From positions 1 to 61,682 of IMG/VR virus record IMGVR_UViG_3300023179_005392: a stretch of 61,682 bases of DNA. One strand, written 5' to 3'. The notes under the pieces are model-generated. The model worked only from the letters and a program-made list of their open reading frames with translations. It searched no databases and was not told the origin of the DNA. Of this stretch, positions 12,271 to 38,078 are shown piece by piece. A program made the position numbers and the translations under genes. This DNA comes from a virus. Each line of letters opens with the position of its first letter. Within the stretch, counting starts at the first letter, position 1.

Positions 12271-13011
12271 ATGAACCAAACAGCAAAACAACTTGTAGCC
12301 GTAATAAAATACTGGCAAAGAAAATGTTCTAAAGTATATTTTGAAATGGATGAAGAGTTGGGTGGATTTGGATGGGATTACCAAAATTCATGTCAATGTA
12401 CTTCAATAGACAATTCAATGACCAAATTACCATATCCAACCCCAATGCGAGTAGTCATGCAGTATTTGATTGATTTACTAGATTTAGAAGATAGAGCAGT
12501 AAATGATATAGATGCGGGAGACCCCAACATTTATTCATATGAATTTCAGTTTAATTTTTCAGAAAAGAATTTTAAAGTGATTTGTAATTATTCATACATT
12601 ACGGAAGGTGATGAAATAGTTTCAATGAGAAACACCAAAAATAATGAAGTGTTAACTGAAGTATTGAATGATCTTAAAAAAAATGGAAAGAAAGGGAAAT
12701 ACCGAGTTGATTTTAATGGTAGTGGAGACTCTGGATATATTGATGATAACATGAGTAGTTTGGAAAGGTCTGAGGCAGATAAAATTCCAAGTGGATTAAA
12801 GGATGAGTTATATGACTTCTTAGGTGCCAGACACCCTGGGTGGGAAAATAATGAGGGTAGTTTTGGGTTTTTTATTATTGACTTAAATAATAACTCAATT
12901 GAACTAAATTATACCGAAAATTATGAAGAAAGTGACTCCGTAATGATTCATATGAGTTCAATAGACGAATTAATTCAAACTATAACTTCAAGTGACGACA
13001 ATAACTATTAA
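12271..13011 (+). CDS. DUF6878-like acidic protein, paralogue 1
   Basis: 246 residues. The C-terminal part carries GKYRVDFNGSGDSGYIDDNM, then IPSGLKDELYDFLGARHPGW and FGFFIIDLNNNSIELNY. This order (RxDFxGSGDSG, LxxxLYDxLxxxHPGW, a strand with IDL) resembles DUF6878 as I remember it. An N-terminal half of about 100 residues has CQCTSIDNS. Function unknown; the Asp-rich loop could bind a cation. The next gene is a tandem paralogue, implying local duplication. A TATTTAT element 4 nt before the ATG suggests late expression. Confidence 0.55.
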   Translation: MNQTAKQLVAVIKYWQRKCSKVYFEMDEELGGFGWDYQNSCQCTSIDNSMTKLPYPTPMRVVMQYLIDLLDLEDRAVNDIDAGDPNIYSYEFQFNFSEKNFKVICNYSYITEGDEIVSMRNTKNNEVLTEVLNDLKKNGKKGKYRVDFNGSGDSGYIDDNMSSLERSEADKIPSGLKDELYDFLGARHPGWENNEGSFGFFIIDLNNNSIELNYTENYEESDSVMIHMSSIDELIQTITSSDDNNY

Positions 13012-13020
13012 ATTAATAAA

Positions 13021-13764
13021 ATGAATTCACCACTAAAACAACTTATGGCTTTGATTAGCTATTGGAAAAAAAAATGTCATGTAGTTTCTTTTAATGTGGA
13101 CGGAGATCTTTCTAGGATTTACGAGAGACGTGACTACTGTTGGTGTCACCAAGTAGATGGTAATAAATTTAAACAACCATTCCCAATTCCAATGTCTGGT
13201 GTAGTATCTTTCATTGCTGAAAAATTAAATTTGGAAATAATACAGTATCACAATATCGATCAGGATCCAGAACTTGTTCATACTGAATTCTTCGAATATT
13301 CATTTGACTTCCCAAATAATAAATTTACGGTAACTGGAGATTTTTCATATCTTACTGAAGGAGATGGAAAAAGTTACCTTATGAGTACTAAAAAAAATCC
13401 AAAATTAGATGAAGTATTAAATGATCTAATGAATGACGGTAAAAAAGGAAAGTATCGTGTTGATTTTAATGGTGATGGTGATGAGGGTTATATCGATGAC
13501 AAAATGGGTTCGTTGGAAATTAAAGATGAAGTTCGAATTCCAAGTGGACTAGAAGATATATTATATGATTTTTTGGAAGCTACGATCCCAGGTTGGGAAG
13601 AAGAAAATGGCGGCCAAGGGTTTTTCATTATTGATTTAGACAAAAGAACAATTAGGTTAAATTATACACCAACAATCAATGTCAACGAAGAACTTTTAAT
13701 TTATAGTTCTTCTTTGGATGAATTAATTCAAACAATTAGTGTCGATACGGAGAGTGTCGAATGA
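13021..13764 (+). CDS. DUF6878-like acidic protein, paralogue 2
   Basis: 247 residues, collinear with the preceding gene from end to end: QLMALISYWKKKC against QLVAVIKYWQRKC at the start, EVLNDLMNDGKKGKYRVDFN against EVLNDLKKNGKKGKYRVDFN in the middle, and ELIQTIS against ELIQTIT at the end. In the N-terminal part WCHQVDG replaces CQCTSID. Nine nucleotides separate the two genes, so both probably share a transcript. The pair looks like an old tandem duplication with divergence. Its 3' end overlaps the convergent lipoprotein gene by 42 nt. Confidence 0.55.
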   Translation: MNSPLKQLMALISYWKKKCHVVSFNVDGDLSRIYERRDYCWCHQVDGNKFKQPFPIPMSGVVSFIAEKLNLEIIQYHNIDQDPELVHTEFFEYSFDFPNNKFTVTGDFSYLTEGDGKSYLMSTKKNPKLDEVLNDLMNDGKKGKYRVDFNGDGDEGYIDDKMGSLEIKDEVRIPSGLEDILYDFLEATIPGWEEENGGQGFFIIDLDKRTIRLNYTPTINVNEELLIYSSSLDELIQTISVDTESVE

Positions 13765-17080: not shown

Positions 17081-17086
17081 AGTTTG

Positions 17087-17487
17087 TGGAGCTAGGTGGA
17101 TTCGAACCACCGTCCTGTGAATTATTTCACGAGAGGCCTACATGATTATTCGATTATTCATAACCGACAAATAGTTGGTTCTTATTTACCATTATTACCA
17201 ACAACCGTGGGAGTTTCACTTAAATCGGTAGAACCCCTAACTTAACCTCCATTCCTTTTTGGGTAGGAACCACACCGTAAGGACTTCTGTTGCAAGGTAC
17301 TTAGTCCGTAACCCCCGGTGATTGTCTCAATTAAGCTACAACCGCGACATCAGACTTCAAGAGTCCGATTGTCTCCATACGTGCGAAAACATCGCCATTT
17401 GATTGTTTGAACCAGTTTTTACGAGGTTAATTCAGCCCCGTCATGCCCTCTCAGATCCATTGAAACCAGTCGATTCCTGTTAGCCCC
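17087..17487 (-). ncRNA. ssrA: Transfer-messenger RNA (tmRNA) with a long tag reading frame
   Basis: tmRNA rescues stalled ribosomes by acting as tRNA-Ala and then as mRNA for a degradation tag. Evidence: the 5' GGGGCUA pairs with 3' UAGCUCC and includes the G3:U wobble recognised by AlaRS; the T-arm GGTGG-TTCGAAT-CCACC follows GGAC; and a PK1-like CCTCGTAAAAA block is present. PK1 stem 2 (TGAATT/GGTTCA) ends 11 nt before a GGC codon at 17396-17394, the same distance as in E. coli. From that Gly codon the frame runs 21 codons to a TAA at 17333-17331 placed in the loop of a 6-bp hairpin (GGTTGT/ACAATC), as in standard helix 5. The tag begins GDVFAR and ends DVAVVA, longer than the usual 8-15 codons. 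CCA is not encoded (ACAA follows). Confidence 0.9.
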
Positions 17488-18397: not shown

Positions 18398-18423
18398 AAA
18401 AAGGGGACTTAAGTCCCCTTTTT
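18398..18423. terminator. Bidirectional intrinsic terminator
   Basis: Perfect palindrome AAAAAGGGGACTT / AAGTCCCCTTTTT between the convergent peptidase and clp genes. The clp stop codon (18409-18411) lies inside the stem. Confidence 0.85.
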
Positions 18424-20418
18424 TGTTGATATCTTAATCTCTTCATCTTTGTAGGTGAGGTAATAATTTTTACCTTCCACAATATCACCCGACAGATATT
18501 TTTCGGAGATTACGTCTTCAATTTTTTCTTGAATAGCTCGTTTGATCGGTCGAGCACCATAGGTCTCATCAAATCCAACTTCGGCAATATGTTCAACAAC
18601 TGAATCTTGACAAGTCACATTGATCTTCAATCCTTTGAGACGACTTGTAAGTTTTGCGACTTCAATTTTGACAATTTCTTTAACCTCTTCTTTTCCAAGG
18701 GAATTGAAGACAATAACATCATCAATACGATTGAGAAATTCTGGTTGAAAATATTTTTTCATTTCAGATTGAAGAATTGTTTTTTTCTTTTCTTCTTCAG
18801 CGTACCTACTTGTTGTGAAACCGATACCAGTTCCGAAATCTTGAATTTTTTTGATACCAATGTTTGATGTCATAATAATCAAACAATTTTTAAAACTAAT
18901 TTTTCTACCTAGACCATCCGTAATATGTCCTTCGTCAAGCATTTGAAGAAGTGTATGAAAAATATCCTTGTTGGCTTTTTCAATCTCATCGAATAAAACA
19001 AGTGAGTATGGTTTGGCTTTTACCTGTTCGGTAAGTTGGCCGCCTTGATCATAACCAACGTATCCAGGAGGAGCACCAATCAATCTAGAAACGTTATGTT
19101 TTTCTTGATATTCACTCATATCGACACGAATTAAAGCATCAGGAGATCCAAAAATTTGTTCAGCCAATTGTTTTGCCAAATGTGTTTTTCCTGTTCCAGT
19201 TCCACCCAAGAAAATGTAACTACCGATCGGTTTATTTGGGTCTTTGAATTTCAAACGGTTTCTACGAATTGACTTCGAAATTTTGGTAATCGCTTCGTTT
19301 TGTCCAATTACTTTTTTTGACAATTCATTTTCAAGATTGGACAAATTATTCTTATCATCCAAAGTCAAACGGTTCAAAGGTATTTTCGTCATATTGGACA
19401 CAACATCCAAAACCACATCCACATCAATTGGACGTTTGTTCATTAAGAGTTCTTCTTCAAATTTTTTCTTTTCAATTTCTAGTTTATCCAGAATTTTCTT
19501 TTCAGCATCTCTTAAATCAGCGGCTTTTTCATAGTCTTGTTTTTTGACCACATCCATTTTTTGTTTTTTAATTTCAGAAGCTTTTGTTTTAAGATTTTCA
19601 ATAATTGGTGGTGCCTTGATATCAATTTGTGATTTGGAACCAACCTCATCTAGAATATCAAAAGCTTTGTCTGGGAACTCTCTATCCGTAATATACCTAT
19701 CTGCCAAGTTAACACAGAGTTCTAATACTTCATCTGAATACGTGACTTTATGGAAATCCTCGTATCTTGATTTGGATTGTTTGATGATTTGTAGTGTTTC
19801 CGTTTTTGATGGTGGATCTACAACAACTTTTTGAAATCTTCTTTCAAGGGCACCATCTTTTTCAATATGTTGTCTATATTCATCAAAAGTTGTTGCACCA
19901 ATACAATGAATTTCACCACGAGATAATGCTGGTTTGAAAATATTTGAAGCATCCATAGCTCCCGACGAATTCCCAGCACCAACCATAGTGTGGATTTCGT
20001 CAATGAAAATAATGACATCAGGATTGTCAGCAATTTCTTCAATAATAGCCTTCATTCGTTCCTCAAATTGTCCACGATATTTTGTACCAGCAACAATTGA
20101 AGTAAGATCCAAATTTACAATTCGTTTATCCCTTAGATTTCTCGGACATTTGCCTTCGTGAATTTGAATTGCTAACCCTTCAACGATTGAGGTTTTACCA
20201 GCACCCGGTTCACCAATGATAATTGCGTTATTTTTTTTTCTACGAGATAAAATTTGAGCAATTCGAGTAATTTCTACTTCACGACCAACAACTGGATCCA
20301 ATTTACCTTCAGCGGCTAATTTATTTAAATCCCGACTGAAATTATCCAATACAGGTGTCCCACCACTTTTTTTACGAACATCTTGTTCTTTTTCGTTTTC
20401 GTCCATTGATTCTATCAT
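18409..20418 (-). CDS. ClpC-like AAA+ unfoldase lacking the N-domain
   Basis: 669 residues with two AAA+ modules. D1: GEPGAGKTS (Walker A, residues 69-76) and VIIFIDEIH (Walker B). A UVR motif in the linker (VVKKQDYEKAADLRDAEK, about 290-307) is typical of ClpC rather than ClpB. D2: GGTGTGKTH (about 404-412), LVLFDEIEKA, sensor LNRIDDVIVF and GARPIKRAIQ. The loop GTGIGFTT (IGF near residue 531) matches the ClpP-docking tripeptide of ClpC/ClpX, so the protein is predicted to feed host ClpP; ClpB lacks this. Bacterial ClpC is about 810 residues; the substrate/adaptor N-domain is absent here. The host-type promoter and divergent dnaK suggest joint control. Confidence 0.85.
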   Translation of the reverse strand: MIESMDENEKEQDVRKKSGGTPVLDNFSRDLNKLAAEGKLDPVVGREVEITRIAQILSRRKKNNAIIIGEPGAGKTSIVEGLAIQIHEGKCPRNLRDKRIVNLDLTSIVAGTKYRGQFEERMKAIIEEIADNPDVIIFIDEIHTMVGAGNSSGAMDASNIFKPALSRGEIHCIGATTFDEYRQHIEKDGALERRFQKVVVDPPSKTETLQIIKQSKSRYEDFHKVTYSDEVLELCVNLADRYITDREFPDKAFDILDEVGSKSQIDIKAPPIIENLKTKASEIKKQKMDVVKKQDYEKAADLRDAEKKILDKLEIEKKKFEEELLMNKRPIDVDVVLDVVSNMTKIPLNRLTLDDKNNLSNLENELSKKVIGQNEAITKISKSIRRNRLKFKDPNKPIGSYIFLGGTGTGKTHLAKQLAEQIFGSPDALIRVDMSEYQEKHNVSRLIGAPPGYVGYDQGGQLTEQVKAKPYSLVLFDEIEKANKDIFHTLLQMLDEGHITDGLGRKISFKNCLIIMTSNIGIKKIQDFGTGIGFTTSRYAEEEKKKTILQSEMKKYFQPEFLNRIDDVIVFNSLGKEEVKEIVKIEVAKLTSRLKGLKINVTCQDSVVEHIAEVGFDETYGARPIKRAIQEKIEDVISEKYLSGDIVEGKNYYLTYKDEEIKISTKKGT

Positions 20419-20577: not shown

Positions 20578-22449
20578 ATGAATAAAAATGTGATTATCGG
20601 TATCGACTTAGGTACCACAAACTCGGCGGTAGCAATTATTGAAGGTGGCCAACCTATCGTGGTTGCTAATTCAGAAGGTAAAAGAACTACACCATCGATT
20701 GTTGCTTTTACTGATAAAGATCGAAAGGTTGGTGATCCTGCAAAAAGACAGGCGGTAACTAATCCAGAAAAGACAGTCTCTTCAATAAAAAGATTTATAG
20801 GTAAAGATTTTGATAAATGTAAAGCAGAATCAAAAAAAGTTCCTTACAAAACAACCAAAACATCAACTGGTCTAGTTGGTGTAAAAATTGATGATAAGAC
20901 ATATACACCACAAGAAATTTCAGCAACTATTCTACAGAAAATGAAAAAAACAGCTGAAGATTATTTGGGTTATGAAGTAACTAGAGCGGTTATTACGGTA
21001 CCAGCTTATTTCGGCGACCAAGAAAGAAGTGCTACTATTGAGGCTGGTGAAATTGCAGGATTGAAAGTTGAAAGAATTATCAATGAACCGACAGCCGCAG
21101 CATTGGCTTATGGCTTAGATAAAAAATCAAAAGATTCCAAAATATTGGTATTTGACTGTGGTGGTGGAACTCATGACGTATCGGTACTTGAAATTGGTGA
21201 TGGGATTTTTGAAGTAAAATCAACTGATGGTGACACACATTTGGGTGGTGATGATTTTGACAACGCGATTATTAATTGGATGACATCTGAGTTTCAAAAT
21301 GAATATGGTGTTGATCTTACAAAAGATCCAATGGCCCTCCAAAGAGTTAGAGAAGCTGCTGAAAAAGCAAAAATTGAATTGTCGTCATCTTCGAACAGTG
21401 AAATTAATTTACCTTACATTACTGCTCGTGAAGGTGTCCCTGTTCACTTTGTTAAATCATTGTCAAGAAGTAAATTTGAACAACTGACAAAAGAATTGGT
21501 TGACAGAACAATTGCTTGTGCGAAAAAAGCTCTTAAAAATGCTAAATTAAAACCATCCGAAATTGATGAAGTAGTTTTAGTTGGTGGATCTACTCGTATT
21601 CCAGCAATCCAAGAAGCGGTCGAGAATTTCATTGGTAAAAAAGCAAATAAATCAGTTAATCCTGATGAAGTTGTGGCTTTGGGAGCTGCTATACAAGGTG
21701 CGGTTCTTACTGGTGATGTAGATGATGTACTACTTTTAGATGTTATTCCATTGTCATTCGGGATCGAGACTATGGGTGGTGTGATGACAAAAATTATTGA
21801 AGCCAATACAACCATTCCAATCAAAAAACAACAAACATTCTCAACAGCTGTTGATAATCAACCAACTGTGGATATTAATGTACTACAAGGTGAAAGACCA
21901 ATGGCAAATGATAACAGATCCTTGGGTAGATTTTTCTTGGAAGGTATTACACCAGCACCACGAGGTGTACCACAAATTGAAGTTACAATTGATATTGATG
22001 CAAATGGAATTCTTCATGTCACAGCAAAAGATCAGGCGTCTGGTAAGGAAAATAAAATCAGAATTGAAGGTGGTTCTTCATTAACACCAGAAGAAATCGA
22101 AAGAATGAAACGTGAAGCTCAAGAAAATTTGGAACAAGATAAATTGACACAACAAAGGGTTGAATTGTTCAATCAATGTGATAATCAAATTTTTAACACG
22201 AAAAAAAATATGGAAGAGTGGAAAGATAAGTTTACTGAAGAACAATCTACGAAGTTAAATGAATGTTTGGCAAATCTAGAGAAAGCTTATTCTGAACGAA
22301 ATGAAGAAAATTGTAAAGAATATTCGGAAAAACTCAATAAAGTCTTCACTGAAGTTTCAAACGAAATATACTCAACAATGAAACCAGAAGATGATATGAA
22401 TACTACAAATGATATTCAAGACGTTGAATTTACAGAAGTAGAAAAGTAA
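20578..22449 (+). CDS. dnaK: Hsp70 chaperone DnaK
   Basis: 623 residues, full length. The nucleotide-binding domain shows [14 protein letters not shown] (9-16 core), phosphate-2 loop DCGGGTHDV (193-201; most DnaK have DLGGGTFDV), [12 protein letters not shown] and the [11 protein letters not shown] motif. The substrate-binding domain ([20 protein letters not shown]) and helical lid are present, ending [20 protein letters not shown], which resembles Bacteroidota DnaK tails. DnaK refolds or holds nascent and misfolded proteins using ATP with DnaJ and GrpE; neither co-chaperone is seen here, so host partners are presumably used. Likely acquired from a Bacteroidota host. Role in a large phage: capsid or replication protein folding, by inference. 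Confidence 0.97.
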
Positions 22450-27474: not shown

Positions 27475-29244
27475 ATGGGATTTACTAAAGAACAACTTTT
27501 ACTTGAATATACCAAGTGTGTTAGGAATACAGAATACGCTTTAAAAACATATTTGCAAACTTATGACAATACACAGTCAAAGTATGTTCCTCTAGAACTT
27601 TTTCCAGATCAGGCGACCCTTATTAAAGATTACGAAGAACACAACGAAAACATTGCAAAGAAATATAGACAAGCTGGTGTATCTACAGTTACCGCAGCTT
27701 GGATTAGTAAAAAATTAGCGTTCGCTCTTAAAAACAAACCCGAAAAGGTTTTGTGTATTGCAAATAAGTTGGATACAGCGGTTGAATTTGCAAATAAAGT
27801 GAGGGGGTTTATTGACCAATGGCCAAGTTGGGTGGGTATTACCTACAGTAATGAAAAAAATTCACAAAGACATTTTAAAATTTCTAACGGATGTGAGGTC
27901 AAAGCGGTTGCTACGTCTAAGGATGCGTTGAGGGGTTATACACCAACAATTCTTATTTTTGATGAGGCAGCATATATTGAGGCTGATAGTGATTTTTGGG
28001 CGGCCTGTATGGCCTCATTATCGACAGGGGGTAAAGTGATTGTTATTTCCACACCAAATGGATACGACCCGATATATTATGAGATCTATGACCAATCTTT
28101 AAGGGGGATCAATGATTTTAAAATAACCGAAATGTTTTGGTGGAGAGATCCGAGATACACCAAAGATTTACAGTTTTTGAAAGTAGATGATCTTATTCAT
28201 TTTTATCTTAACAGAGATGAATACCCTGATCTGGAAATTGTTGATTTTTCAGACACACTACCATTCGATCGAGACTATGATGAGATCCAGAAATTATTTG
28301 AAAGTGGATACAAACCAACGTCAAATTGGTTTGAAAAAATGGTCAAGAAATTAAAATATGATAAAAGAAAAGTTGCACAAGAATTAGAATGTAATTTTTT
28401 GGGGTCTGGTGATAATGTGTTTGACTCAAATTTGGTTCAAAAAATATTGGAAAATGATGTGAAGGATCCTGTAAACAAAATGGTGAGTGGTGGTTTGTGG
28501 TTATGGAAAGAACCAGTTTTGGGACATCGATACATTATGGGTGTTGACGTGAGTAGGGGTGATAGTGAAGACTTCTCCACTTTTCAAATTTTCGATTTTG
28601 ACGATAGAGAACAGGTTGTTGAATATTTGGGAAAACTACCACCTGATAATTTGGCAGATATTGTTTATAAGTGGGCAACAATGTATAAAGCATTTGTTGT
28701 CATTGATATTACTGGTGGTATGGGTGTCTCAACCGCAAGAAAACTTCAAGAACTTGGTTACAAAGATTTATATGTTGATGGTATGGATATTGCAAATAAA
28801 TGGAAATTTGATCCCAAAATGCAAGATAAAATACCCGGAATTAATTTTAACAATAAACGAGTACAAATAATTTCCGCACTAGAAGAATATTTTCGTCACG
28901 GATTGAAAATACATTCAATTCGTCTTGTTAATGAAATGAACACATTCGTTTATATTAATGGTCGTCCTGATCATATGAAAGGACAACACGACGATTTAAT
29001 TATGTCTCTTGCTATGGCGGTATATGTTGCCGATTATTCATTTACTCAGTTACAAAAAGTATCACAACAAGCAAAAGTTTTATTGGAATCTTGGGAAGTA
29101 AAAACATACGAACAACCATCATCTCAACATTTTAATCCAGCATTACCAAACACAAATTATAAAGAAAATCCAGCGTTTAGAAATCAACCATCAAGAGCTG
29201 ACTATGAACAATATTCTTGGTTGTTCGGTGGTGGTAAGCGTTGA
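27475..29244 (+). CDS. Terminase large subunit (T4 gp17-like)
   Basis: 589 residues. ATPase: KKYRQAGVSTVTAAW at 63-77 is the Walker A position, without the usual Lys directly before S/T; ILIFDEAAY (Asp163-Glu164) is Walker B with catalytic Glu, followed by an IVISTPNG coupling motif. RNase H-like nuclease: IMGVDVSRGDSED (Asp358), VVIDITGGMG, and QHDDLIMSLAMAV (Asp506/507). The protein packages DNA through the portal using ATP and cuts concatemers. Length and motif order match gp17-type motors. It precedes the portal gene by 30 nt. Confidence 0.95.
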   Translation: MGFTKEQLLLEYTKCVRNTEYALKTYLQTYDNTQSKYVPLELFPDQATLIKDYEEHNENIAKKYRQAGVSTVTAAWISKKLAFALKNKPEKVLCIANKLDTAVEFANKVRGFIDQWPSWVGITYSNEKNSQRHFKISNGCEVKAVATSKDALRGYTPTILIFDEAAYIEADSDFWAACMASLSTGGKVIVISTPNGYDPIYYEIYDQSLRGINDFKITEMFWWRDPRYTKDLQFLKVDDLIHFYLNRDEYPDLEIVDFSDTLPFDRDYDEIQKLFESGYKPTSNWFEKMVKKLKYDKRKVAQELECNFLGSGDNVFDSNLVQKILENDVKDPVNKMVSGGLWLWKEPVLGHRYIMGVDVSRGDSEDFSTFQIFDFDDREQVVEYLGKLPPDNLADIVYKWATMYKAFVVIDITGGMGVSTARKLQELGYKDLYVDGMDIANKWKFDPKMQDKIPGINFNNKRVQIISALEEYFRHGLKIHSIRLVNEMNTFVYINGRPDHMKGQHDDLIMSLAMAVYVADYSFTQLQKVSQQAKVLLESWEVKTYEQPSSQHFNPALPNTNYKENPAFRNQPSRADYEQYSWLFGGGKR

Positions 29245-29274: not shown

Positions 29275-32076
29275 ATGGAAGATAAAAATTTAACAATATG
29301 GCAAAGACTTTCCCAAAGTTTTGGGCCTAACTCACTTCTAGGTCAGGATTTACCTACATATAAATTTGATAAGAAAGAATTACTCAGAACACAGAGTAAA
29401 GATGAATATGAAAAACAAAAGCTTCAAGCACAACAAACTTACTATCTTGTAAGTCAGTGGGCTAAAGTTGAAAACAATTTATACAACCAAGCGGTCTACT
29501 ATGAACCAACAAGATTAGCATCATACTATGATTTTGAAAGTATGGAATATTCGTTAAGTTCTGAAACACTCATAGCAACACCTGATGGTTTTATAACAAT
29601 AAAAGACCTTGCAGATAAAGGTAGAGACCACGAATTTATTGTATATGCTTACGATCATAACACCGAAAAAGTTGTACCCGCATTAGCAAGGAACGCTCAT
29701 TACACACGTGATGAAATGACTTATAAAATTACATTTGATGATGGATCACACATAATCGCAACATATGGTCACAGATTTTTGAAACGTGATGGCGTTTTTG
29801 AGGTTGTTGAAAACCTAAAACCCGGTGATTCTATGATGCCATTTTATCGTAAATCATTTTTTGATAATCAAAATTATAATTGGGTATATGTGTGTAATTC
29901 TAATGAAGGACATCACGGATGGGTTTCTGAACACAAATTAATTGCTGAATGGTATTACGACAAAAAAGTTAGTGTTGACGAAGAAGTTCATCACAAAGAT
30001 TTTAATGGTAAAAATAATAACCCTGAAAATTTGCAAATTATGAATATTTCAGAGCACAGGGCTTATCACAGAAAATTGAATAATGAAAAACTTTGGGCCA
30101 ATCCAGAATTCAGAGAAAAAATGTCAATTGTTGCCAAAAGAAAAGGAAAATTAAGTTGGAATGGGAGAAGAGTGGGTGTTAAGAACCCGTCTTATTTTCA
30201 CATACCATACGATTTAATAGTTCAAAAAGCTACTGAGTATAAAACTTTAATGGGTACAGCGTCAGCACTTAATATTTCATACAAAAAATTACAAAGAGAA
30301 ATAACATATGCTGGTTATAAAGATTGGAGTACTTTTTGTTTTGCTTATGGTATTGAAAAATCGAAATATTCAACCGCTAAGGTTAAAGGTGATAGTTATG
30401 TTTTTAACCATAAAATTGTAAGTATTGAACCGCACGGAGTTGTACCAGTGTATGACTTGAGTGTACCTGGATATAAAAACTTTGCAACTGACACCATATT
30501 TTCCCATAACACACCAGAAATCGCGTCAGCATTGGATACATATGCTGAAGAGTCAACCACCGTTGATGAAAATGGTTTTATGTTACAGATTTATTCTGAT
30601 TCGCCCAGAATAAAATCTATTCTAGCGGATTTATTTAATAACGCTCTTGACATCAACACAAACTTACCGATGTGGACACGTAATACCGCCAAATATGGTG
30701 ATAATTTTGTGTTTTTGAAATTAGATCCTGAAAAGGGGGTTGTAGGTTGTTTACAACTACCTAACATTGAAATAGAAAGAATTGAGGTAGGAATGAAAGG
30801 TAGAGCAACTTCAGGATTTGGGGCAGCACAAGCATCCAACGCCGATACAAAAAGTTTAACATTTACTTGGAAAAACAAACAATTGGATTTTAATAGTTGG
30901 GAAATTGCCCACTTCCGATTGTTAGGCGATGATCGTAAACTACCTTACGGAACTGCGATGACCGAAAAAGCAAGAAGGATTTGGAAACAATTGGTATTAG
31001 CAGAGGATGCGATGCTTGTTTATCGAACATCTAGAGCCCCTGAAAGAAGGGTATTTAAAGTTTACGTTGGAAATATGGACGACGCGGATGTTTATCCATA
31101 TGTCCAAAGATTTGCACAACAATTTAAAAAAGATCAGATTGCAGACCCTAAAACTGGTAATGTTGACATGAGATTCAATCAGATGGCGGTAGACCAAGAC
31201 TTTTTTATTCCTGTAAGAGATCCTGCAGCACCTACACCAATTGACACATTAGCTGGTGCTCAAAACCTATCAGAAATTGCAGATATCGAGTACATTCAGA
31301 AAAAACTTTTGACAGCACTTAGAATTCCAAAAGCATTTTTAGGATTTGAGGAACCTGTTGGTGATGGTAAAAATTTATCACTACAAGACATTCGTTTTGC
31401 AAGAACAATCAATAGAATTCAAAAGTGTATGATTTCGGAGTTGAATAAAATTGCTATTATACACTTGTTTTTACTTGGTTTTGAAGATGAACTTGGTTCA
31501 TTTCAATTATCACTGACTAATCCATCTAAACAAGCAGATTTACTCGCAGTAGAAGTTTGGAAAGAAAAAATGTTATTGTATAGAGACGCTGTCACCAAAA
31601 TTGAAGGTATTGCACCAGTATCTCAGGCTTGGGCTAAAAAACACGTTCTTGGATTTTCAGATGATGAAATCAAACTTGATTTACAACAACAAAGAATGGA
31701 AATGGCGGTATCTGCAGAACTCACAAATACACCTAATGTTATTAACAGAACAGGTCTCTTTGATAATATCGATAAGTTGTACGGAAAACAAGTTATGAGT
31801 GGAGAAACATCAACCACAGGTACACCACCTATGGGTGGTGCGGAACCATTACCTCCTGCTGGTGGTGGATTTGGTGGTGAAATGGGTGGTGGTGAAATAC
31901 CAGCACCAGCTCCAGAGGAACCTACATTAGCACCAGAAAGTAGGAAAAAAACACCAAACATAATCTTAGAAAGGACGGGAATAGAAAATAGAGAAGAAAT
32001 AGATTTTGATAAAGGTGAAAAAATATTATCATCAATTCAAAATGAGTTGGACAAATTATCGGATAAAACTATTTAA
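29275..32076 (+). CDS. Portal protein (T4 gp20-like) interrupted by an intein
   Basis: 933 residues as translated; removing the 320-residue intein leaves about 613, close to T4 gp20 (524) plus a Gly/Pro-rich tail. The exteins join as DFESMEY + TPEIASALDTYAEES, a conserved portal N-terminal helix. Further portal features: WEIAHFRLLGDDRKLPYGTA, then RAPERRVFKVYVGNMDD and FARTINRIQKCMISEL. The dodecameric portal forms the DNA channel at one head vertex and docks terminase and neck. A Gly/Met-rich segment and helix close the C-terminus. A near-match GTATTTAC lies upstream. Confidence 0.92.
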   Translation: MEDKNLTIWQRLSQSFGPNSLLGQDLPTYKFDKKELLRTQSKDEYEKQKLQAQQTYYLVSQWAKVENNLYNQAVYYEPTRLASYYDFESMEYSLSSETLIATPDGFITIKDLADKGRDHEFIVYAYDHNTEKVVPALARNAHYTRDEMTYKITFDDGSHIIATYGHRFLKRDGVFEVVENLKPGDSMMPFYRKSFFDNQNYNWVYVCNSNEGHHGWVSEHKLIAEWYYDKKVSVDEEVHHKDFNGKNNNPENLQIMNISEHRAYHRKLNNEKLWANPEFREKMSIVAKRKGKLSWNGRRVGVKNPSYFHIPYDLIVQKATEYKTLMGTASALNISYKKLQREITYAGYKDWSTFCFAYGIEKSKYSTAKVKGDSYVFNHKIVSIEPHGVVPVYDLSVPGYKNFATDTIFSHNTPEIASALDTYAEESTTVDENGFMLQIYSDSPRIKSILADLFNNALDINTNLPMWTRNTAKYGDNFVFLKLDPEKGVVGCLQLPNIEIERIEVGMKGRATSGFGAAQASNADTKSLTFTWKNKQLDFNSWEIAHFRLLGDDRKLPYGTAMTEKARRIWKQLVLAEDAMLVYRTSRAPERRVFKVYVGNMDDADVYPYVQRFAQQFKKDQIADPKTGNVDMRFNQMAVDQDFFIPVRDPAAPTPIDTLAGAQNLSEIADIEYIQKKLLTALRIPKAFLGFEEPVGDGKNLSLQDIRFARTINRIQKCMISELNKIAIIHLFLLGFEDELGSFQLSLTNPSKQADLLAVEVWKEKMLLYRDAVTKIEGIAPVSQAWAKKHVLGFSDDEIKLDLQQQRMEMAVSAELTNTPNVINRTGLFDNIDKLYGKQVMSGETSTTGTPPMGGAEPLPPAGGGFGGEMGGGEIPAPAPEEPTLAPESRKKTPNIILERTGIENREEIDFDKGEKILSSIQNELDKLSDKTI
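29551..30510 (+). mobile_element. Intein with HNH homing endonuclease in the portal gene
   Basis: 320 residues (Ser93 to Asn412 of the precursor). Block A SLSSETLIATPDG with Ser1; block B GSHIIATYGHRFLKRDG (TxxH-like); C-terminal blocks GVVPVYDLSVPGYKNFATD and FSHN, with penultimate His and terminal Asn, followed by Thr as +1 extein residue. In the middle, SEHKLIAEWYY and EEVHHKDFNGKNNNPENLQI form an HNH homing endonuclease. Splicing would occur by the standard Ser1/Asn/+1 Thr route. The insertion is in the most conserved N-terminal segment of the portal, as expected for homing. Confidence 0.93.
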
Positions 32077-32089
32077 CAAATAAAAAACT

Positions 32090-32791
32090 ATGAAATTCGG
32101 AGAACTATTTTCAGCAATCGAAAGCCATTTGCTATCCTCTTACGAGAAAGGAATTTTTGAATCACAAATAAATGGTTTCAACAATTTGGTACTTAAAAAT
32201 AAAGAATTATCATCAATATTCTATCTTTACAATCAATTGGACGAAACCAAGTCTTTAGATCGAGAGTCTGCTGAATTATTAATTCAAGAAACGGTTAGAC
32301 AAATTGAAAATATCAAACCTAACGTAAAAAAGAAATTAGTGGAACTATGGGTGAAAGATATAAAAACTGAGAATGTCTACGAAGACATTGATAATTTGAT
32401 TTACACAGATATTACAAATTTAGTAGAAACAGTACAGTCCAAAAAGAAATTGATTTCAACTCTTACAGAAACAGTTCAACCAAAAGAAAAAGTTAATATA
32501 CCAATAACAACTCTTTTCAAAATCGCAAATAGAACAACATCAGAATATGTTCAAAGTTTGGATGAGGACACGAAAAAAGAATTGACAAATATCCTTACCG
32601 AAGATATTGAGGTGTTAGAAAACAAATATACTGAACTCAAAAAAGACACAATAGAAAAATTAAGACAAAAATTGTCTGAGAATTCTGGTGAAGTTTTTAA
32701 TAAAATTGAAGAAGTTCTTTATCAGATCGACAGAGAATCATTTGACAGGATTAACTACGTGAGGTTAAAGTCCTTATCGGACAATTTGTAA
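32090..32791 (+). CDS. Helical head-cluster protein, unknown
   Basis: 233 residues, almost all charged alpha-helix: MKFGELFSAIESHLLSSYEK, then ESAELLIQETVRQIENIKPN and a DTIEKLRQKLSENSGEVFNK coiled-coil end. It lies between portal and protease, where T4 keeps its small prohead core genes (67, 68). The charge pattern would suit a core or chaperone role, but no sequence similarity is evident. Upstream spacer of 13 nt; no own promoter. Confidence 0.5.
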   Translation: MKFGELFSAIESHLLSSYEKGIFESQINGFNNLVLKNKELSSIFYLYNQLDETKSLDRESAELLIQETVRQIENIKPNVKKKLVELWVKDIKTENVYEDIDNLIYTDITNLVETVQSKKKLISTLTETVQPKEKVNIPITTLFKIANRTTSEYVQSLDEDTKKELTNILTEDIEVLENKYTELKKDTIEKLRQKLSENSGEVFNKIEEVLYQIDRESFDRINYVRLKSLSDNL

Positions 32792-32793
32792 TC

Positions 32794-32985
32794 TCAGTTC
32801 TCCGCGTCACGTTTTCTTTGAATGAACTGAGCCTTCAAAACTTCCTTTCTTCTTTTTTGAGCCTTACTCTCAAAAGAAAGTCTTAACAATAATCCTTCAT
32901 TTTGTTTTGTTTTGATAATTTTTCCTTTTAATAATTTCAAGGATTTATCAAGACTAGATGTTCCGTTTACTTTAATTTTAATCAT
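32794..32985 (-). CDS. rpsU: Ribosomal protein bS21 homologue
   Basis: 63 residues from the ATG at 32985. MIKIKVNGTSSLDKSLKLLK has the bS21 N-terminal pattern (I-x-V..N..ldkALk.lK), and FESKAQKRRKEVLKAQFIQR the basic C-terminal helix of Bacteroidota bS21 (K-x-KRR-E-x-KAQ). bS21 sits on the 30S platform beside the anti-Shine-Dalgarno; in Bacteroidota it helps mask it. Phage bS21 copies are known in marine phages and may replace the host protein to bias initiation. It is alone on the minus strand among plus-strand head genes, with its own promoter. Confidence 0.8.
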   Translation of the reverse strand: MIKIKVNGTSSLDKSLKLLKGKIIKTKQNEGLLLRLSFESKAQKRRKEVLKAQFIQRKRDAEN

Positions 32986-33001
32986 GTGTAATAAATAATA
33001 C

Positions 33002-33031
33002 AAAAGTTAAAAAAAATTTGATTTGTATCAA
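33002..33031 (-). promoter_or_regulatory. Host-type promoter of the bS21 gene
   Basis: TTG (33031-33029), 19-nt spacer, TAACTTTT (33009-33002); one change from TAnnTTTG. 16 nt to the ATG. Confidence 0.45.
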
Positions 33032-33080
33032 TAATTGTGTTATTTTTTTGTAAAAATAAACCAGTATACAATATGAATAA

Positions 33081-33530
33081 ATGAAAAAAGGCAAAACCTG
33101 TAAATTAAACGGATTTACAAGATTGAAAAGTACGTATGGAACAGTAGATTCCAAAACATTTAAATCTTTGTATTTAAACATACAAAGTTGGGTGACACCT
33201 CAAAAAAGTGTTGAAAATTGGTCAAGAGTGGTAAACATTCTGAATAGAGAAATAAAAGAGACCATAAACGAAATTTTAGATCTTACATTATTACAACCAA
33301 AATTTATTTTAGACCTAGACCTTAGAACCAGTGGATTAGTTGTCGGGAAAAAAAGTTTTATGAATTTGGAAATAACATTCTTCGTGGCAAAAAATATAGA
33401 ATTCAAATCAACATTACTGAAAACACATCTTCAAAATCTAACATCACTTATAAATTCACACAATTTTACCAAAAACACTTACTTCAAATTTGAAAAAACA
33501 AAGAAACTGAAAACAATTGATATTATCTAA
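33081..33530 (+). CDS. Unknown protein
   Basis: 149 residues, basic, mixed alpha/beta: MKKGKTCKLNGFTRLKSTYG, then WVTPQKSVENWSRVVNILNR and a strand-rich LDLDLRTSGLVVGKKSFMNL. The Lys-rich ends suggest nucleic acid or protein contact, but no family is recognised. It sits between bS21 (divergent) and the prohead protease. Conservation in similar phages is likely but unverified. Confidence 0.45.
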   Translation: MKKGKTCKLNGFTRLKSTYGTVDSKTFKSLYLNIQSWVTPQKSVENWSRVVNILNREIKETINEILDLTLLQPKFILDLDLRTSGLVVGKKSFMNLEITFFVAKNIEFKSTLLKTHLQNLTSLINSHNFTKNTYFKFEKTKKLKTIDII

Positions 33531-33551: not shown

Positions 33552-34283
33552 ATGAAAATATTAGGGCCAAACGAAGTAGGTAAAGGAATTTTAATTGAAA
33601 TGGATGCTGGATATATCTCAGCAACTGATGAAAGAAATTTAAAAGTAATTCAAGAACAGAAAACTCAATTAGATCATTCTAAACCTTTTGAATTTTATGC
33701 TGTACTTCAAAAGTACAATACACCGAACAGAAATGGTAGAGTATATCCTGAAGAAATTCTCAAAAGAGAAGCTGAGAATTATAGAAAATTAATCAAAAAG
33801 GGAGTGGCTCTTTCAGAACTTAATCACCCAGAATCTTCACTTATTGATTTAGACCGAGTATGTCACGTCATTACTGATTTATGGTGGGAAAACCAAATGC
33901 TTTTAGGAAAGTTAAAACTATTGACATCACCGGGTTTTCACGAGAGAGGTATCGTTTCAACAAAAGGAGACCAAGCAGCTAACTTACTTAGACAAGGAGT
34001 TACTTTAGGTATATCCTCAAGAGGTGTAGGATCCTTGAAAAAAGTAGGTGAACAAAATGAAGTACAGAAAGATTTTGAATTAATTTGTTTTGATTTGGTA
34101 TCATCACCTTCAACACCCGGAGCGTATCTATTTTCGAATATTGATGATAGATATTCGTTTGATGAAAATATTGAAGAAGAAAAAAGAATGAGACAAATAT
34201 CCACAGAATCATCAAATAACGGTAATCCTATGAATCGCTCTATTGACTTAATGAATAAATTGAATAACTTTTTAAGAAAATAA
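33552..34283 (+). CDS. Prohead maturation protease (T4 gp21-like, S78/U9 type)
   Basis: 243 residues. Motifs: YNTPNRNGRVYPEEIL, ALSELNHPE with catalytic His (about residue 92), and VTLGISSRGVGS with catalytic Ser (155 or 156); the third residue is probably an acidic residue shortly after. This fold processes the scaffold and the capsid N-terminus at (I/L)-x-E sites in T4-like phages. The gene lies directly before the scaffold and capsid genes. It has its own TATTTAT element. The C-terminus is Ser/Asn-rich and may itself be trimmed. Confidence 0.92.
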   Translation: MKILGPNEVGKGILIEMDAGYISATDERNLKVIQEQKTQLDHSKPFEFYAVLQKYNTPNRNGRVYPEEILKREAENYRKLIKKGVALSELNHPESSLIDLDRVCHVITDLWWENQMLLGKLKLLTSPGFHERGIVSTKGDQAANLLRQGVTLGISSRGVGSLKKVGEQNEVQKDFELICFDLVSSPSTPGAYLFSNIDDRYSFDENIEEEKRMRQISTESSNNGNPMNRSIDLMNKLNNFLRK

Positions 34284-34286
34284 TTT

Positions 34287-34499
34287 ATGGAAGAATCAAA
34301 GTATTTTGTATCAAAAGTACAATACGATCTACCTGACGAAAATTCAGGTAAGGTCAAAAAGATCACTGAAATGAAACTTGTACGAGCAATTTCAGTTACA
34401 GATGTTGAAGCCAAGGTGACTGAAAAGTACCAAGGTTTCCAACACGATTGGCGAATAACTTCGGTAATTGAAAGTAAAATCGACGAAGTGATCGAGTAA
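34287..34499 (+). CDS. DUF4494-like small protein
   Basis: 70 residues: YFVSKVQYDLPDENSGKVKK, then ITEMKLVRAISVTDVEAKVT and a closing FQHDWRITSVIESK. The order of two strands, a VxAxSxTxxEAxxxE helix and a last strand matches DUF4494, a family I know almost only from Bacteroidota. Function unknown. It is one of the sequence arguments for the host phylum. Ends 6 nt before an intrinsic terminator. Confidence 0.65.
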   Translation: MEESKYFVSKVQYDLPDENSGKVKKITEMKLVRAISVTDVEAKVTEKYQGFQHDWRITSVIESKIDEVIE

Positions 34500-34504
34500 A
34501 AATT

Positions 34505-34532
34505 AACCCCACCAATGAGTGGGGTTTTTTTT
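34505..34532 (+). terminator. Intrinsic terminator
   Basis: Stem AACCCCAC / GTGGGGTT, 6-nt loop, then a run of eight T. Ends the protease/DUF4494 transcript. Confidence 0.88.
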
Positions 34533-34586
34533 GTAAATTTTTTTTACAACAAAAATTGTAAAAATCAATATTTTTTACGTTATGGA

Positions 34587-34595
34587 TATATTTAT
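34587..34595 (+). promoter_or_regulatory. Phage TATTTAT promoter element
   Basis: TATATTTAT directly touching an ATG at 34596 and 21 nt before the ATG at 34617; the latter is the likely start if this is the promoter. Confidence 0.5.
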
Positions 34596-34616
34596 ATGGA
34601 AAAATTTAATATTTCT

Positions 34617-36212
34617 ATGGCAGACAAAAAGTCATTAGTAGAAGAAGCACTTCTTCAGATGAAAAATCTTGAAGATGTTGTTACTGAAAACGCAAAAGGA
34701 ATACTTGCTTCGACTATGAAGGAAGAAATCTCTGAGTTGGTAAAAGAGTCTTTGAAAAACAAGGCTAAAAATAAATTGAAAGAACAAGACGAACCAGATA
34801 CTGATCCTGATGATGACGTGGATATGGATTCTGATGATGACGTGGATATGGATTCTGATGATGAAATGGATATGGATTCTGACAAAGAAATGGATATGGA
34901 TTCTGATGATGACGTGGATATGGATTCTGATGATGAAATGGATATGGATTCTGATGATGAAATTGATATGGAACCTGAGGTCGATATTGACATTGAAGAC
35001 GATGTGGTGGAAATCCCAGACGACGCTTCAATGGAAGACGTTCTTAGTGTATTCAAAAAAATGGGGCCGTCAGATAGAATAATCGTTAAAAAAGAAGGTG
35101 ATAAAATTCACCTTGACGACGAAGATGAAGATGTTGAATATATCATCTCAACTAACGAATCAATTTCAGAAGCTATGTCAGATATGGATTTAGATAAACT
35201 TATGAATGATATCTTCGAAGATGAAGATATGGGTGAAGATGATTACAGTGATCTTGGCGAAGATATGGATTACAGTGATCTTGGTGAAGATATGGATTAC
35301 ACCGATCTTGGTGAAGATGACGAAGTTGTATATGAAATTTCAATGGACGAAGACATGGGCGATGATCTTGATGAAGATGACGAACCTGTACACGAATCAA
35401 AGTTTGGTATGAAACCTATTATGTTTTCTGACTGGAAACCAGGAAAAAAATTGGGTTCCAAAGCTGAAACTAAAGAATCTACTACAACAAAACCTAAAGA
35501 AAAAGTTGAAACTGGTAAGGAAAAATCAAAAAGTCCTTTCCATAGACCAGGTGAAAAAACAGCACCTAAAGCTAAAAAAACCGAAACTAAAGAAGGTATG
35601 GGTAAACTCAAACCGAAGGGTACTGGAATGAATCTTTCTCCAAAGAAATTTGAATACAAAGAAGGAAAAAAACATGACATATCAATGGTTGAAAAAAGAA
35701 TTGCTGGAGCATTCTCCAAAGGTGAAACTAAAGAGGCAGCTAGAACTCTAGGTAATGGAACAAGAAACTTTGGTCCAAGAAAAGGTCTACCAAAAATGAA
35801 AGTAATTCCTAATTCTGCAGTTAGAGAAGAAGTTGAATCTTTGAGACAAAAAAATGTTGAGTATCAAAAAGCATTGAATGTTTTCAGAGAAAAACTTAAT
35901 GAAGTTGCTGTCTTCAATTCAAATTTGGCTTACGCTACAAGGTTATTCACAGAACATTCTACGTCCAAACAAGAAAAGATTAACATCTTAAGAAGATTTG
36001 ATGAAGTTGAGACAATTAAAGAATCTAAAAATTTGTACAACGCAGTCAAAAATGAATTAACAAATTCAAATAAAAATGTGGTTACTGAATCAATGGAAAA
36101 AATCGAAAAAACCCATTCTTCAGGATCATCACAAAATTTAATTGAATCAAAAACTTATGAAAATCCTCAGTTCATGCGAATGAAGGATATCATGCAAAAA
36201 ATAAATAAATAA
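34617..36212 (+). CDS. Prohead core/scaffold-type acidic protein (T4 gp22-like position)
   Basis: 531 residues from the ATG at 34617 (an ATG at 34596 would add seven residues). N-terminal helix LVEEALLQMKNLEDVVTENA; then seven 8-residue acidic repeats (DDDVDMDS type); more acidic sequence; a basic Lys/Pro linker; and a C-terminal coiled coil (REEVESLRQKNVEYQKALNV) ending QFMRMKDIMQKINK. A long acidic/helical protein between protease and capsid genes is the place of T4 gp22 core protein, and its C-terminal helix resembles the gp22 end. Several (I/L)xE sites could be cut during maturation. The repeats are unusual for gp22. Confidence 0.7.
   Translation: MADKKSLVEEALLQMKNLEDVVTENAKGILASTMKEEISELVKESLKNKAKNKLKEQDEPDTDPDDDVDMDSDDDVDMDSDDEMDMDSDKEMDMDSDDDVDMDSDDEMDMDSDDEIDMEPEVDIDIEDDVVEIPDDASMEDVLSVFKKMGPSDRIIVKKEGDKIHLDDEDEDVEYIISTNESISEAMSDMDLDKLMNDIFEDEDMGEDDYSDLGEDMDYSDLGEDMDYTDLGEDDEVVYEISMDEDMGDDLDEDDEPVHESKFGMKPIMFSDWKPGKKLGSKAETKESTTTKPKEKVETGKEKSKSPFHRPGEKTAPKAKKTETKEGMGKLKPKGTGMNLSPKKFEYKEGKKHDISMVEKRIAGAFSKGETKEAARTLGNGTRNFGPRKGLPKMKVIPNSAVREEVESLRQKNVEYQKALNVFREKLNEVAVFNSNLAYATRLFTEHSTSKQEKINILRRFDEVETIKESKNLYNAVKNELTNSNKNVVTESMEKIEKTHSSGSSQNLIESKTYENPQFMRMKDIMQKINK
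34809..34976. repeat. Seven 24-bp coding repeats (acidic)
   Basis: In-frame units encoding DDDVDMDS, DDEMDMDS, DKEMDMDS and similar. Near-identical at the DNA level; probably length-variable. Confidence 0.85.
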
Positions 36213-36233: not shown

Positions 36234-38078
36234 ATGGGTGCATTATTAGAAAGCGGTCTAGTTGGTAATATCGGGTTGAAACACCTTAAAGTTATCAAAG
36301 AAGACACAATTAACAAGTGGGACAGACTTGGGTTCTTAGAAGGACTTAGAGGCCACATGAAAGAAAACGTTGCTCAATTGTATGAGAACCAAGCGTCTTT
36401 CTTGATAAACGAAGCGTCATCAACTTCAGACAGTGGTTCATTTGAAACTGTTGTATTCCCGATCGTAAGAAGGGTTTTCTCCAAACTTTTGGCGAATGAT
36501 ATCGTATCGGTTCAAGCTATGAACTTACCTATTGGTAAATTGTTCTACTTTGTTCCAAAGATCCAAGGTTATTCTGGTGGAACTGGTAATAATGATTTGG
36601 GTTGGAACGGACAGAGTGGTGCCCACTATGCTCCAGTCGGTTCACCAGGAAACTATCCAGGTAATCAAAATGCGGGTTATACCGCGGCTGACAGTAACGG
36701 TACTTACAATCCATACTATAAAAAAGATCTTTACGATCTATTCTATGAAGGTGATGAGGCGACTCTTAACCCTCCAGGTCTTTTTGACTATTCTAAAGGT
36801 CAGTGGACTGCAGTCACAGCAAGTTCTGTAACCTACGCTTGGGATGCTGGTGGATCTTTAATTCCTTCGGCTTATACCGAAAATAATTATCGTAAGGTAA
36901 TCATTATGATGAGTGGTTTCTCAAATGCTGGCGCTGGTCAATTGATTGGGCCAAATGGTAACACAATGGATACTGAAGAATTCCTTTCTGGATTGAATAT
37001 TTTTGGTGTAAATTCCTACGTAAGTGGTAATACTAATCCATATCTATTTAGAGTTGTAACACAAAAATACGGTAAAGGTATTGTACAATACGGTAGTCAA
37101 GTGAGTACTACTTGGCCAACTAATAATAACTCTGGTGGAGCATACAATAATGTATGTGATGCTAATGGGCAAATTTTCTTAGAAGTTGATTTACAAGTAC
37201 CTGTGTGTATTTCTTGTAATGCCACATCTCTAGATGGTTATACTGGTACTTCTTTTTCATCTACAACCGCTGTCAATGAAGCATTTAGACCAGTTTATAG
37301 ACTTTACAAAGAACTTGAATTTGAAGATAAAATTGGTGAAGTTTCTTTTGATTTAGAATCTGTTACAGTTTCTGTTACAGAAAGAAAATTGAGAGCACAA
37401 TGGTCTCCTGAACTTGCTCAAGACGTTTCAGCATTCCACAACATCGATGCAGAAGCTGAGTTAACAGCTCTTCTTTCTGAACAAGTTGCGGCTGAAATCG
37501 ACAGAGAAATTTTGAGAGATTTGAGAAAAGGTGCTGCATGGAACTTGAGATGGGATTACAACGGTTGGAAGAGATTAGCTTCTACTGGTACAACTCCTTA
37601 CACTCAGAAGGATTGGAATCAAACCCTTATCACCGCTATCAACCAGTTGTCTGCTCAAATTCACAAGTCAACTTTGAGAGGTGGTGCTAACTGGATCGTT
37701 TGTTCTTCAGAAATTTCTGCAATCTTCGATGATTTGGAATACTTCCACGTATCGAACGCAGCTCCAGAACAAGATCAGTACAATATGGGTATCGAAAGAA
37801 TTGGTACACTATCTGGTAGATATCAGGTTTATAGGGATCCTTACTTCCCACCAAACCAGTTGATCATCGGACACAAAGGTACGTCATTGTTAGATACAGG
37901 TTACATTTACGCTCCGTATGTACCTCTACAATTGACACCTACAATGTACAATCCATTCAACTTTACACCTATCAAAGGTATAATGACAAGATACGCTAAG
38001 AAAATGGTTAACAACCGTTTCTACGGACGTGTAACTTGCGATGGTATTCGTACTTTCGATTTGAGAGAATTACGCTAA
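36234..38078 (+). CDS. Major capsid protein (T4 gp23-like)
   Basis: 614 residues. The N-terminal propeptide ends FLINE|ASSTSD, aligning with the T4 gp23 cleavage site FLTE|A; Glu60 is the predicted cut. Then FETVVFPIVRRVFSKLLAND and IVSVQAMNLPIGKLFYF match the gp23 start of the HK97 fold (VRRxxPxLIAxDxxxVQPMxxPxG). Later FEDKIGEVSFDLESVTVSVT and RKLRAQWSPELAQDV, and the P-domain end NRFYGRVTCDGIRTFDLREL, are also conserved. About 90 residues longer than gp23, with Gly/Asn-rich insertions (residues about 100-340) that may decorate the surface. Confidence 0.95.
   Translation: MGALLESGLVGNIGLKHLKVIKEDTINKWDRLGFLEGLRGHMKENVAQLYENQASFLINEASSTSDSGSFETVVFPIVRRVFSKLLANDIVSVQAMNLPIGKLFYFVPKIQGYSGGTGNNDLGWNGQSGAHYAPVGSPGNYPGNQNAGYTAADSNGTYNPYYKKDLYDLFYEGDEATLNPPGLFDYSKGQWTAVTASSVTYAWDAGGSLIPSAYTENNYRKVIIMMSGFSNAGAGQLIGPNGNTMDTEEFLSGLNIFGVNSYVSGNTNPYLFRVVTQKYGKGIVQYGSQVSTTWPTNNNSGGAYNNVCDANGQIFLEVDLQVPVCISCNATSLDGYTGTSFSSTTAVNEAFRPVYRLYKELEFEDKIGEVSFDLESVTVSVTERKLRAQWSPELAQDVSAFHNIDAEAELTALLSEQVAAEIDREILRDLRKGAAWNLRWDYNGWKRLASTGTTPYTQKDWNQTLITAINQLSAQIHKSTLRGGANWIVCSSEISAIFDDLEYFHVSNAAPEQDQYNMGIERIGTLSGRYQVYRDPYFPPNQLIIGHKGTSLLDTGYIYAPYVPLQLTPTMYNPFNFTPIKGIMTRYAKKMVNNRFYGRVTCDGIRTFDLRELR

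Follow-up and report, generated by a model that had tools for sequence, protein, structure and literature searches.

A bS21 homologue in a reverse-strand slot of a phage head gene cluster and its possible place on Bacteroidota ribosomes

A reverse-strand gene within the head cluster

The window, i.e. the whole stretch of DNA analysed here, is a virus fragment of 61,682 bases. In its middle part a T4-like head cluster with terminase, portal, protease and capsid genes, all located on the plus strand, surrounds one small gene of opposite orientation, which encodes a homologue of the ribosomal protein bS21. The following features are found in this region:

27475..29244 (+): large terminase (PF03237, E 4.4e-13; phrog_2, E 4.9e-43)
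29275..32076 (+): portal protein of T4 gp20 type, interrupted by an intein (PF07230, E 7.9e-70; PF14890, E 3e-14)
32090..32791 (+): conserved 233-aa head-cluster protein that converges on bS21; no significant family
32794..32985 (-): bS21 gene with ATG start and 63 codons (63 aa), assigned from its ORF, PDB bS21 matches, aligned residues and profile
32991..32997 (-): promoter-like element TATTTAT, at -12 to -6 of the bS21 start
33018..33031 (no strand): inverted repeat TTGAT-N4-ATCAA, TTGATTTGTATCAA, between the divergent genes for bS21 and CN
33081..33530 (+): 149-aa protein "CN", named after the published bS21_CN to which it corresponds by position; divergent from bS21 and member of a family very common in viruses
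33552..34283 (+): prohead protease (PF03420, E 5.1e-22)
34287..34499 (+): DUF4494 protein (PF14902, E 1e-9)
34515..36212 (+): acidic repetitive protein in the place of the scaffold, labelled by position only; no family match
36234..38078 (+): major capsid protein of T4 gp23 type (PF07068, E 2.2e-72)

An earlier note had described a 63-residue minus-strand protein inside the head operon that should be the sole minus-strand gene between 23 and 38 kb, and this description is borne out. The reading frame itself occupies 32794-32985; the note had let the feature run to 33031, which includes the upstream region. Among 38 minus-strand ORFs of at least 40 aa between 23 and 38.1 kb, bS21 is the only one without overlap on the plus strand: the ORF at 32978-33181 (67 aa) is half overlapped by plus-strand genes and the remaining ones are mostly overlapped. 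The portal intein spans about residues 107-412 and bears an HNH domain.

The same arrangement is found in related phages. In a first set of 75 loci CN is present in 73 and the gene of the 233-aa protein in 74, the latter always on the strand opposite bS21, and the same opposite orientation holds for every head gene found. Where CN (L019, L074) or the 233-aa gene (L022) is absent, bS21 lies less than 200 nt from the contig end. Thus bS21 occupies a fixed reverse-strand slot within the head cluster. A second set was anchored on CN and comprises the best 80 of at least 588 relatives, 76 of them with at least 350 nt upstream of CN; it shares six contigs, by name, with the first set. In 69 of these 76 loci the gene was detected, always on the opposite strand, by a profile built from both phage and host bS21; these loci give 51 distinct proteins. 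The other seven (L265, L273, L281, L296, L297, L298 and L300) have CN without adjacent bS21. In six of them the gap between the end of the 233-aa gene and CN is about 132-136 nt and in the seventh about 63 nt, which is too short for bS21 to fit in. Elsewhere in these seven records, all fragments of 4-51 kb, bS21 was not found with a 28-member profile that does detect the gene of the window as positive control.

These seven loci weaken the view of CN as obligate partner of bS21, and CN is more likely a head-cluster protein. Its predicted structure is confident (pLDDT 90.2), and a comparison with PDB folds gave no match at E 0.001. They also bear on the proposal that a bS21 relative was re-used as a nucleic-acid-binding protein of the virion or its assembly and is made together with the capsid genes. 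Such a role would agree with the constant position of bS21 inside the head cluster, and packaging into the virion was raised as a possibility in PMC9723584. However, the gene lies on the strand opposite the head genes, the protein keeps its ribosome-facing residues (see below), and with 7 of 76 head clusters lacking it bS21 is not needed for heads, so that we consider this role very improbable. The seven head clusters that bear CN and lack bS21 provide a natural comparison group for the contribution of bS21.

Several other genes of the window deserve mention. A phage tmRNA at 17084-17487 (-) was recognised by Rfam RF00023 (90.8 bits, cut-off 47) and missed by ARAGORN; tmRNA scores above the cut-off in 4 of 15 related phage records. 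A reading frame common to the window, L156 and L159 would yield a long tag (GDVFARMETIGLLKSDVAVVA in the window) that ends in VVA, TVA or VGA; the usual tag end is ALAA. The tmRNA is adjoined by genes for a ClpB-like AAA+ ATPase (18409-20418, -) and a full-length HSP70 (20578-22449, +), which together with bS21 would form a translation and proteostasis set. The adjacent genes at 12271-13011 and 13021-13764 (+) both match DUF6878 and apparently result from tandem duplication, and a 979-aa protein encoded at 5670-8609 (-) has a C-terminal cohesin-type domain.

Identity and clade-wide residue changes of the phage protein

Taken as a single sequence the 63-aa protein is a borderline case. It has no match in Pfam, PHROGs or NCBIfam, and the PF01165 profile finds nothing in the 61,682-base record. 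A phmmer search against PDB returned two matches in total, both of them bS21 (one from Flavobacterium johnsoniae), at E 0.03 and colinear over residues 1-62. The identity was settled by the profiles of its relatives, of which 24 were found in viral contigs; tblastn against the INPHARED phage records gave no match. A profile of 12 members of the phage family matches F. johnsoniae bS21 (7jil_z) with 5.9e-13 and a second bS21 chain with 6.4e-12, and nine of the 12 members match PF01165 themselves (best 6.7e-8). The HMM search proposed in the earlier note thus fails for the single sequence and succeeds for its family. With 28 members the profile locates exactly the gene at 32794-32985 in the record (E 1.2e-28) and recovers the host rpsU gene in 151 of 159 Bacteroidia genomes. 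The predicted structure consists of two helices (9-36 and 41-62, pLDDT 91.2), i.e. a small basic two-helix protein as in bS21. In Foldseek the top matches of this model are chains of the small ribosomal subunit at E 3.9 and worse, two bare helices giving little signal. On these profile matches the protein is classified as a bS21 homologue of Bacteroidota type, and it is a divergent new member of an already published phage bS21 group.

That the reading frame is a relic or spurious could be suspected from the failure of the single sequence in all curated models. This suspicion is refuted by the dN/dS values of phage bS21, which amount to 0.04-0.24 in the 10 computable of 21 pairs (the other 11 pairs are saturated at synonymous sites), and by the intactness of the ORF across the 75 loci, one of them truncated by the contig end. 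Phage bS21 is under purifying selection, and the chance of a spurious gene is practically negligible.

For the comparison with the host copy, which the earlier note had proposed as well, the choice of the phage set matters. The first set had been retrieved by means of bS21 peptide patterns that span residues 19-26, and was then cleared of duplicates and of proteins outside 55-75 aa; its residue statistics are biased in the part spanned by the patterns, and the CN-anchored set was therefore relied on. The 51 distinct proteins of the latter were compared in one alignment with 130 distinct proteins of hosts. Two positions are fully distinct between both groups: at position 21 all 51 phage proteins have S or G and all 130 host proteins R or K, and at position 24 I, L or M (51/51) is found vs. 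D or E (130/130). Position 27 is K or R in 51/51 phage proteins vs. G in 124/130 host proteins, position 23 is V or I in 50/51 vs. F in 123/130, and position 28 is Q in 46/51 vs. T or V in 114/130. The end of helix 1 is thus changed clade-wide in phage bS21, and these changes indicate which residues to swap.

Other residues are kept in phage bS21, namely L16, K17, K20, K22, T26, R46 and A52. An aromatic residue at position 54 is present in all 51 distinct proteins (Y in 36, H in 9 and F in 6); F54 of the window aligns with Tyr54 in bS21 of F. johnsoniae. The residues that face the ribosome (K17, K20, K22, T26, L32, R46, A52, aromatic 54 and Q56 or near) are kept. Residue 34 is Leu in the window and Ser in the nearest relatives (L001-L015). 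In a tree of 167 rows, with Flavobacteriales thinned to 30, the 78 phage rows form one side of a branch with support 100/98 that is present in 100% of 200 bootstrap trees, the alignment comprising 64 columns only.

Since the bS21 profile matches Bacteroidota bS21 first (in PDB only Bacteroidota-type chains fall below E 0.01), the host is likely a member of Bacteroidota. The C-terminal 23 residues of bS21 have a mean identity of 0.39 (best 0.57) to the Flavobacteriales set and of 0.27 (best 0.44) to the class sample. Among the Bacteroidia genomes searched the phage HSP70 reaches up to 67% identity to other Bacteroidia vs. 60-61% to the Flavobacterium-like genomes G001, G066 and G102. HSP70 did not point to a specific host, the best identities of 64-67% being spread over many genomes.

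Promoter-like elements and Shine-Dalgarno signals

The earlier note had also assumed that bS21 is transcribed from its own host-type promoter, and this part did not hold. The host-type consensus, which we take to be TTG followed by TAnnTTTG, is absent: within 50 nt upstream of the bS21 ATG there is no TAnnTTTG but TATTTAT instead. Of the 72 upstream 50-mers in the window, 17 contain this element, compared with a mean of 3.45 and a maximum of 8 after shuffling. In the relatives, 11 of 31 distinct bS21 upstream regions contain it (mean 2.68 and maximum 9 after shuffling), and five contain TAnnTTTG (mean 0.95 and maximum 5). TATTTAT (e.g. upstream of 33552, 40043 and 12271) thus looks like a promoter element of the phage itself. 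It often takes the form ATATTTAT, a sequence of which 12 of 18 occurrences in the genome lie at most 50 nt upstream of an ATG-ORF. The T4 late promoter TATAAATA offers an analogy; that sequence is not enriched in the window (2 of 72 upstream regions vs. 1.85 in shuffled ones). A second, host-like class with TTG-N17-21-TAnnTTTG precedes a few genes of the window, namely 4 of the 72 upstream regions, with bS21 not among them.

The inverted repeat at 33018-33031 is conserved upstream of bS21 in the nearest relatives and might be considered a weak operator candidate. An operator shared by bS21 and CN was rejected as the repeat is present with a count near chance: two of this type occur in the window vs. 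0.63 expected, 12 of 100 shuffles reach as many, and the other copy of the type lies at 55101-55114.

Pairing energies were computed between gene upstream regions and the 16S tail, using what we assume to be its sequence. An extended Shine-Dalgarno (SD) sequence, i.e. a value below -13 kcal/mol, is not found for bS21 of the window (+0.2 kcal/mol), nor for any of the 75 phage loci (all at -3.6 kcal/mol or weaker) or the 69 CN-anchored loci (all at -6.4 kcal/mol or weaker). In the 80 host loci nearest to F. johnsoniae bS21, which were chosen by this likeness and over-represent SD-bearing rpsU, the host gene reaches -16.8 kcal/mol or stronger in all 80. The 11-nt SD core is matched over at least 7 nt in 73 of these 80 hosts, in 0.4% of shuffled host upstream regions, and over 4 nt in none of the 75 phages. 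An even sample of the class corrects the selection of hosts: in 60 genomes (every second list row of the 153 Bacteroidia genomes with a match) rpsU is below -13 kcal/mol in 9 and below -6 in 17. Flavobacteriales-type rpsU was also found in MAGs titled Lentimicrobium, Rhizobium, Limnohabitans and Pelagibacter (L089, L092, L111, L124), which are probably mis-binned contigs.

Phage bS21 genes thus are without the strong SD of Flavobacteriales rpsU and consequently without the known feedback element of rpsU. This contrast holds for Flavobacteriales-like hosts, since in the class-wide sample no more than 9 of the 60 rpsU genes lie beyond -13 kcal/mol; the phage HSP70 is closer to other Bacteroidia. 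Escape from autoregulation follows from the absent SD solely in hosts whose rpsU bears one. The absence may also be mere background, all phage genes being SD-less: among 67 ATG-ORFs of the window none has a 5-nt match to AAAGGAGGTGA and 12 have one of 4 nt. In this respect the phage genes do not differ from Bacteroidia genes, so that a preference for mRNAs of the phage by way of the SD is not apparent.

This bears on the model proposed in PMC9723584 (2022), by which phage bS21 in the ribosome selects phage over host mRNAs via its altered first helix; a changed initiation specificity in favour of phage mRNAs had also been put forward in the earlier note. In its favour, positions 18, 21, 23, 24, 27 and 28, which differ almost fully from the 130 host proteins, are located exactly in that part of the protein that is said to overlie the mRNA path. 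Nevertheless, the phage leaders share no SD-like signal, they are A-rich and SD-less like Bacteroidia leaders generally, and aromatic 54, which helps to hide the anti-SD in F. johnsoniae, is kept throughout. A change of specificity through the rewritten end of helix 1 is possible, but as an explanation of the gene this switch appears doubtful to us. The strong conservation of the clade without a visible mRNA signal could also be read as simple supply, in which abundant phage bS21 keeps the 30S subunits complete during a long infection and its residue changes are due to drift or make it immune to a host factor directed against host bS21. Against neutrality, the fixed replacements of R/K21 by S/G and of D/E24 by I/L/M look functional, which makes simple supply an improbable reading.

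Proposed exchange of bS21 on host ribosomes and comparison with known systems

The interpretation draws on two published stories, one on bS21 genes of phages and one on the autoregulation of rpsU in Flavobacteriales by ribosomes without bS21. In the first, a study of 47 genomes of freshwater Bacteroidota phages (Chen 2022, PMC9723584), related bS21 genes were highly transcribed late, and the protein was proposed to substitute into host ribosomes in late infection. In the second (McNutt 2023, PMC9976891), F. johnsoniae bS21 was found to help in sequestering the 16S tail; in ribosomes lacking it the anti-SD is exposed, rpsU with its strong SD is preferred, and SD-less mRNAs are translated less well. 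In this way rpsU is autoregulated. The authors suggested that this loop could be a defence against phages that exchange bS21.

We suggest with a probability only slightly above one half (roughly 0.55) that bS21 of the phage clade replaces or supplements the host protein on 30S subunits in late infection. It would load onto 30S subunits that are made without bS21 or have lost it, and would hold them closed and blind to SD sequences, a state required by the SD-less mRNAs of the phage. Host rpsU, where it has a strong SD, would be throttled when ribosomes are replete. The mRNA of phage bS21 has no SD, so its synthesis would not be throttled and the ribosome pool would drift to the phage form. Both the repression of host rpsU and the late timing are presumed for the phage of the window. 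The residual activity of about 5% of Escherichia coli ribosomes that have taken up bS21 of the pelagiphage HTVC008M (Mizuno 2019, PMC6375957) fits poisoning as well as replacement.

Beyond replacement as such, a more speculative extension, which we put forward tentatively and hold to be rather improbable, describes phage bS21 as one-way override of a host thermostat. The SD-less gene would yield a product that closes the anti-SD and thereby switches off host rpsU but never itself, until the ribosome pool is converted. Through positions 18-28, rewritten across the clade, phage ribosomes would be marked, be it in favour of phage mRNA or as protection from a host factor by which host bS21 is stripped off or cleaved. 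If the phage copy does escape and override the rpsU loop, it would offer a concrete test of viral ribosome reprogramming by the swap of one protein, and F. johnsoniae would allow a simple reporter assay. The accessible text of PMC9723584, PMC9976891 and PMC6375957, supplements aside, contains no statement on an escape of phage bS21 from rpsU autoregulation.

The locus, its reverse orientation and the model of a late replacement of host bS21 have already been published for freshwater Bacteroidota phages (PMC9723584). The myophages described there have a reverse-strand bS21 gene between two hypothetical genes in the same head cluster of TerL, portal, prohead protease and MCP. The aromatic residue 54, the divergence at positions 21, 23 and 28 (besides one numbered '25' in that paper) and the divergent neighbour gene are common to both. 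In contrast, bS21 of the window is more diverged, having no Pfam match alone, and it carries Phe54, which was seen once in PMC9723584. The genomes of that study comprise 293-331 kb, whereas the present phage is known here from a 61.7-kb fragment. Their CN gene was reported as co-expressed with bS21 and as absent from two outgroup phages, whereas here it is also present in phages without bS21 at that place.

Flavobacteriales rpsU (PMC9976891) encodes a homologous protein with the same aromatic residue, but the phage genes are without its autoregulatory strong SD. The bS21 of HTVC008M (PMC6375957) is a phage protein as well, although with proteobacterial host and bS21 type. For paralogues of bS21 in Francisella (PMC9578407, cited in PMC9976891) it is reported that an alternative bS21 alters ribosome composition and gene expression, but they are cellular and not of phage origin. 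The absent strong SD, the clade-wide residue changes and the occurrence of the neighbour gene CN also without bS21 go beyond the accessible text of PMC9723584, PMC9976891 and PMC6375957.
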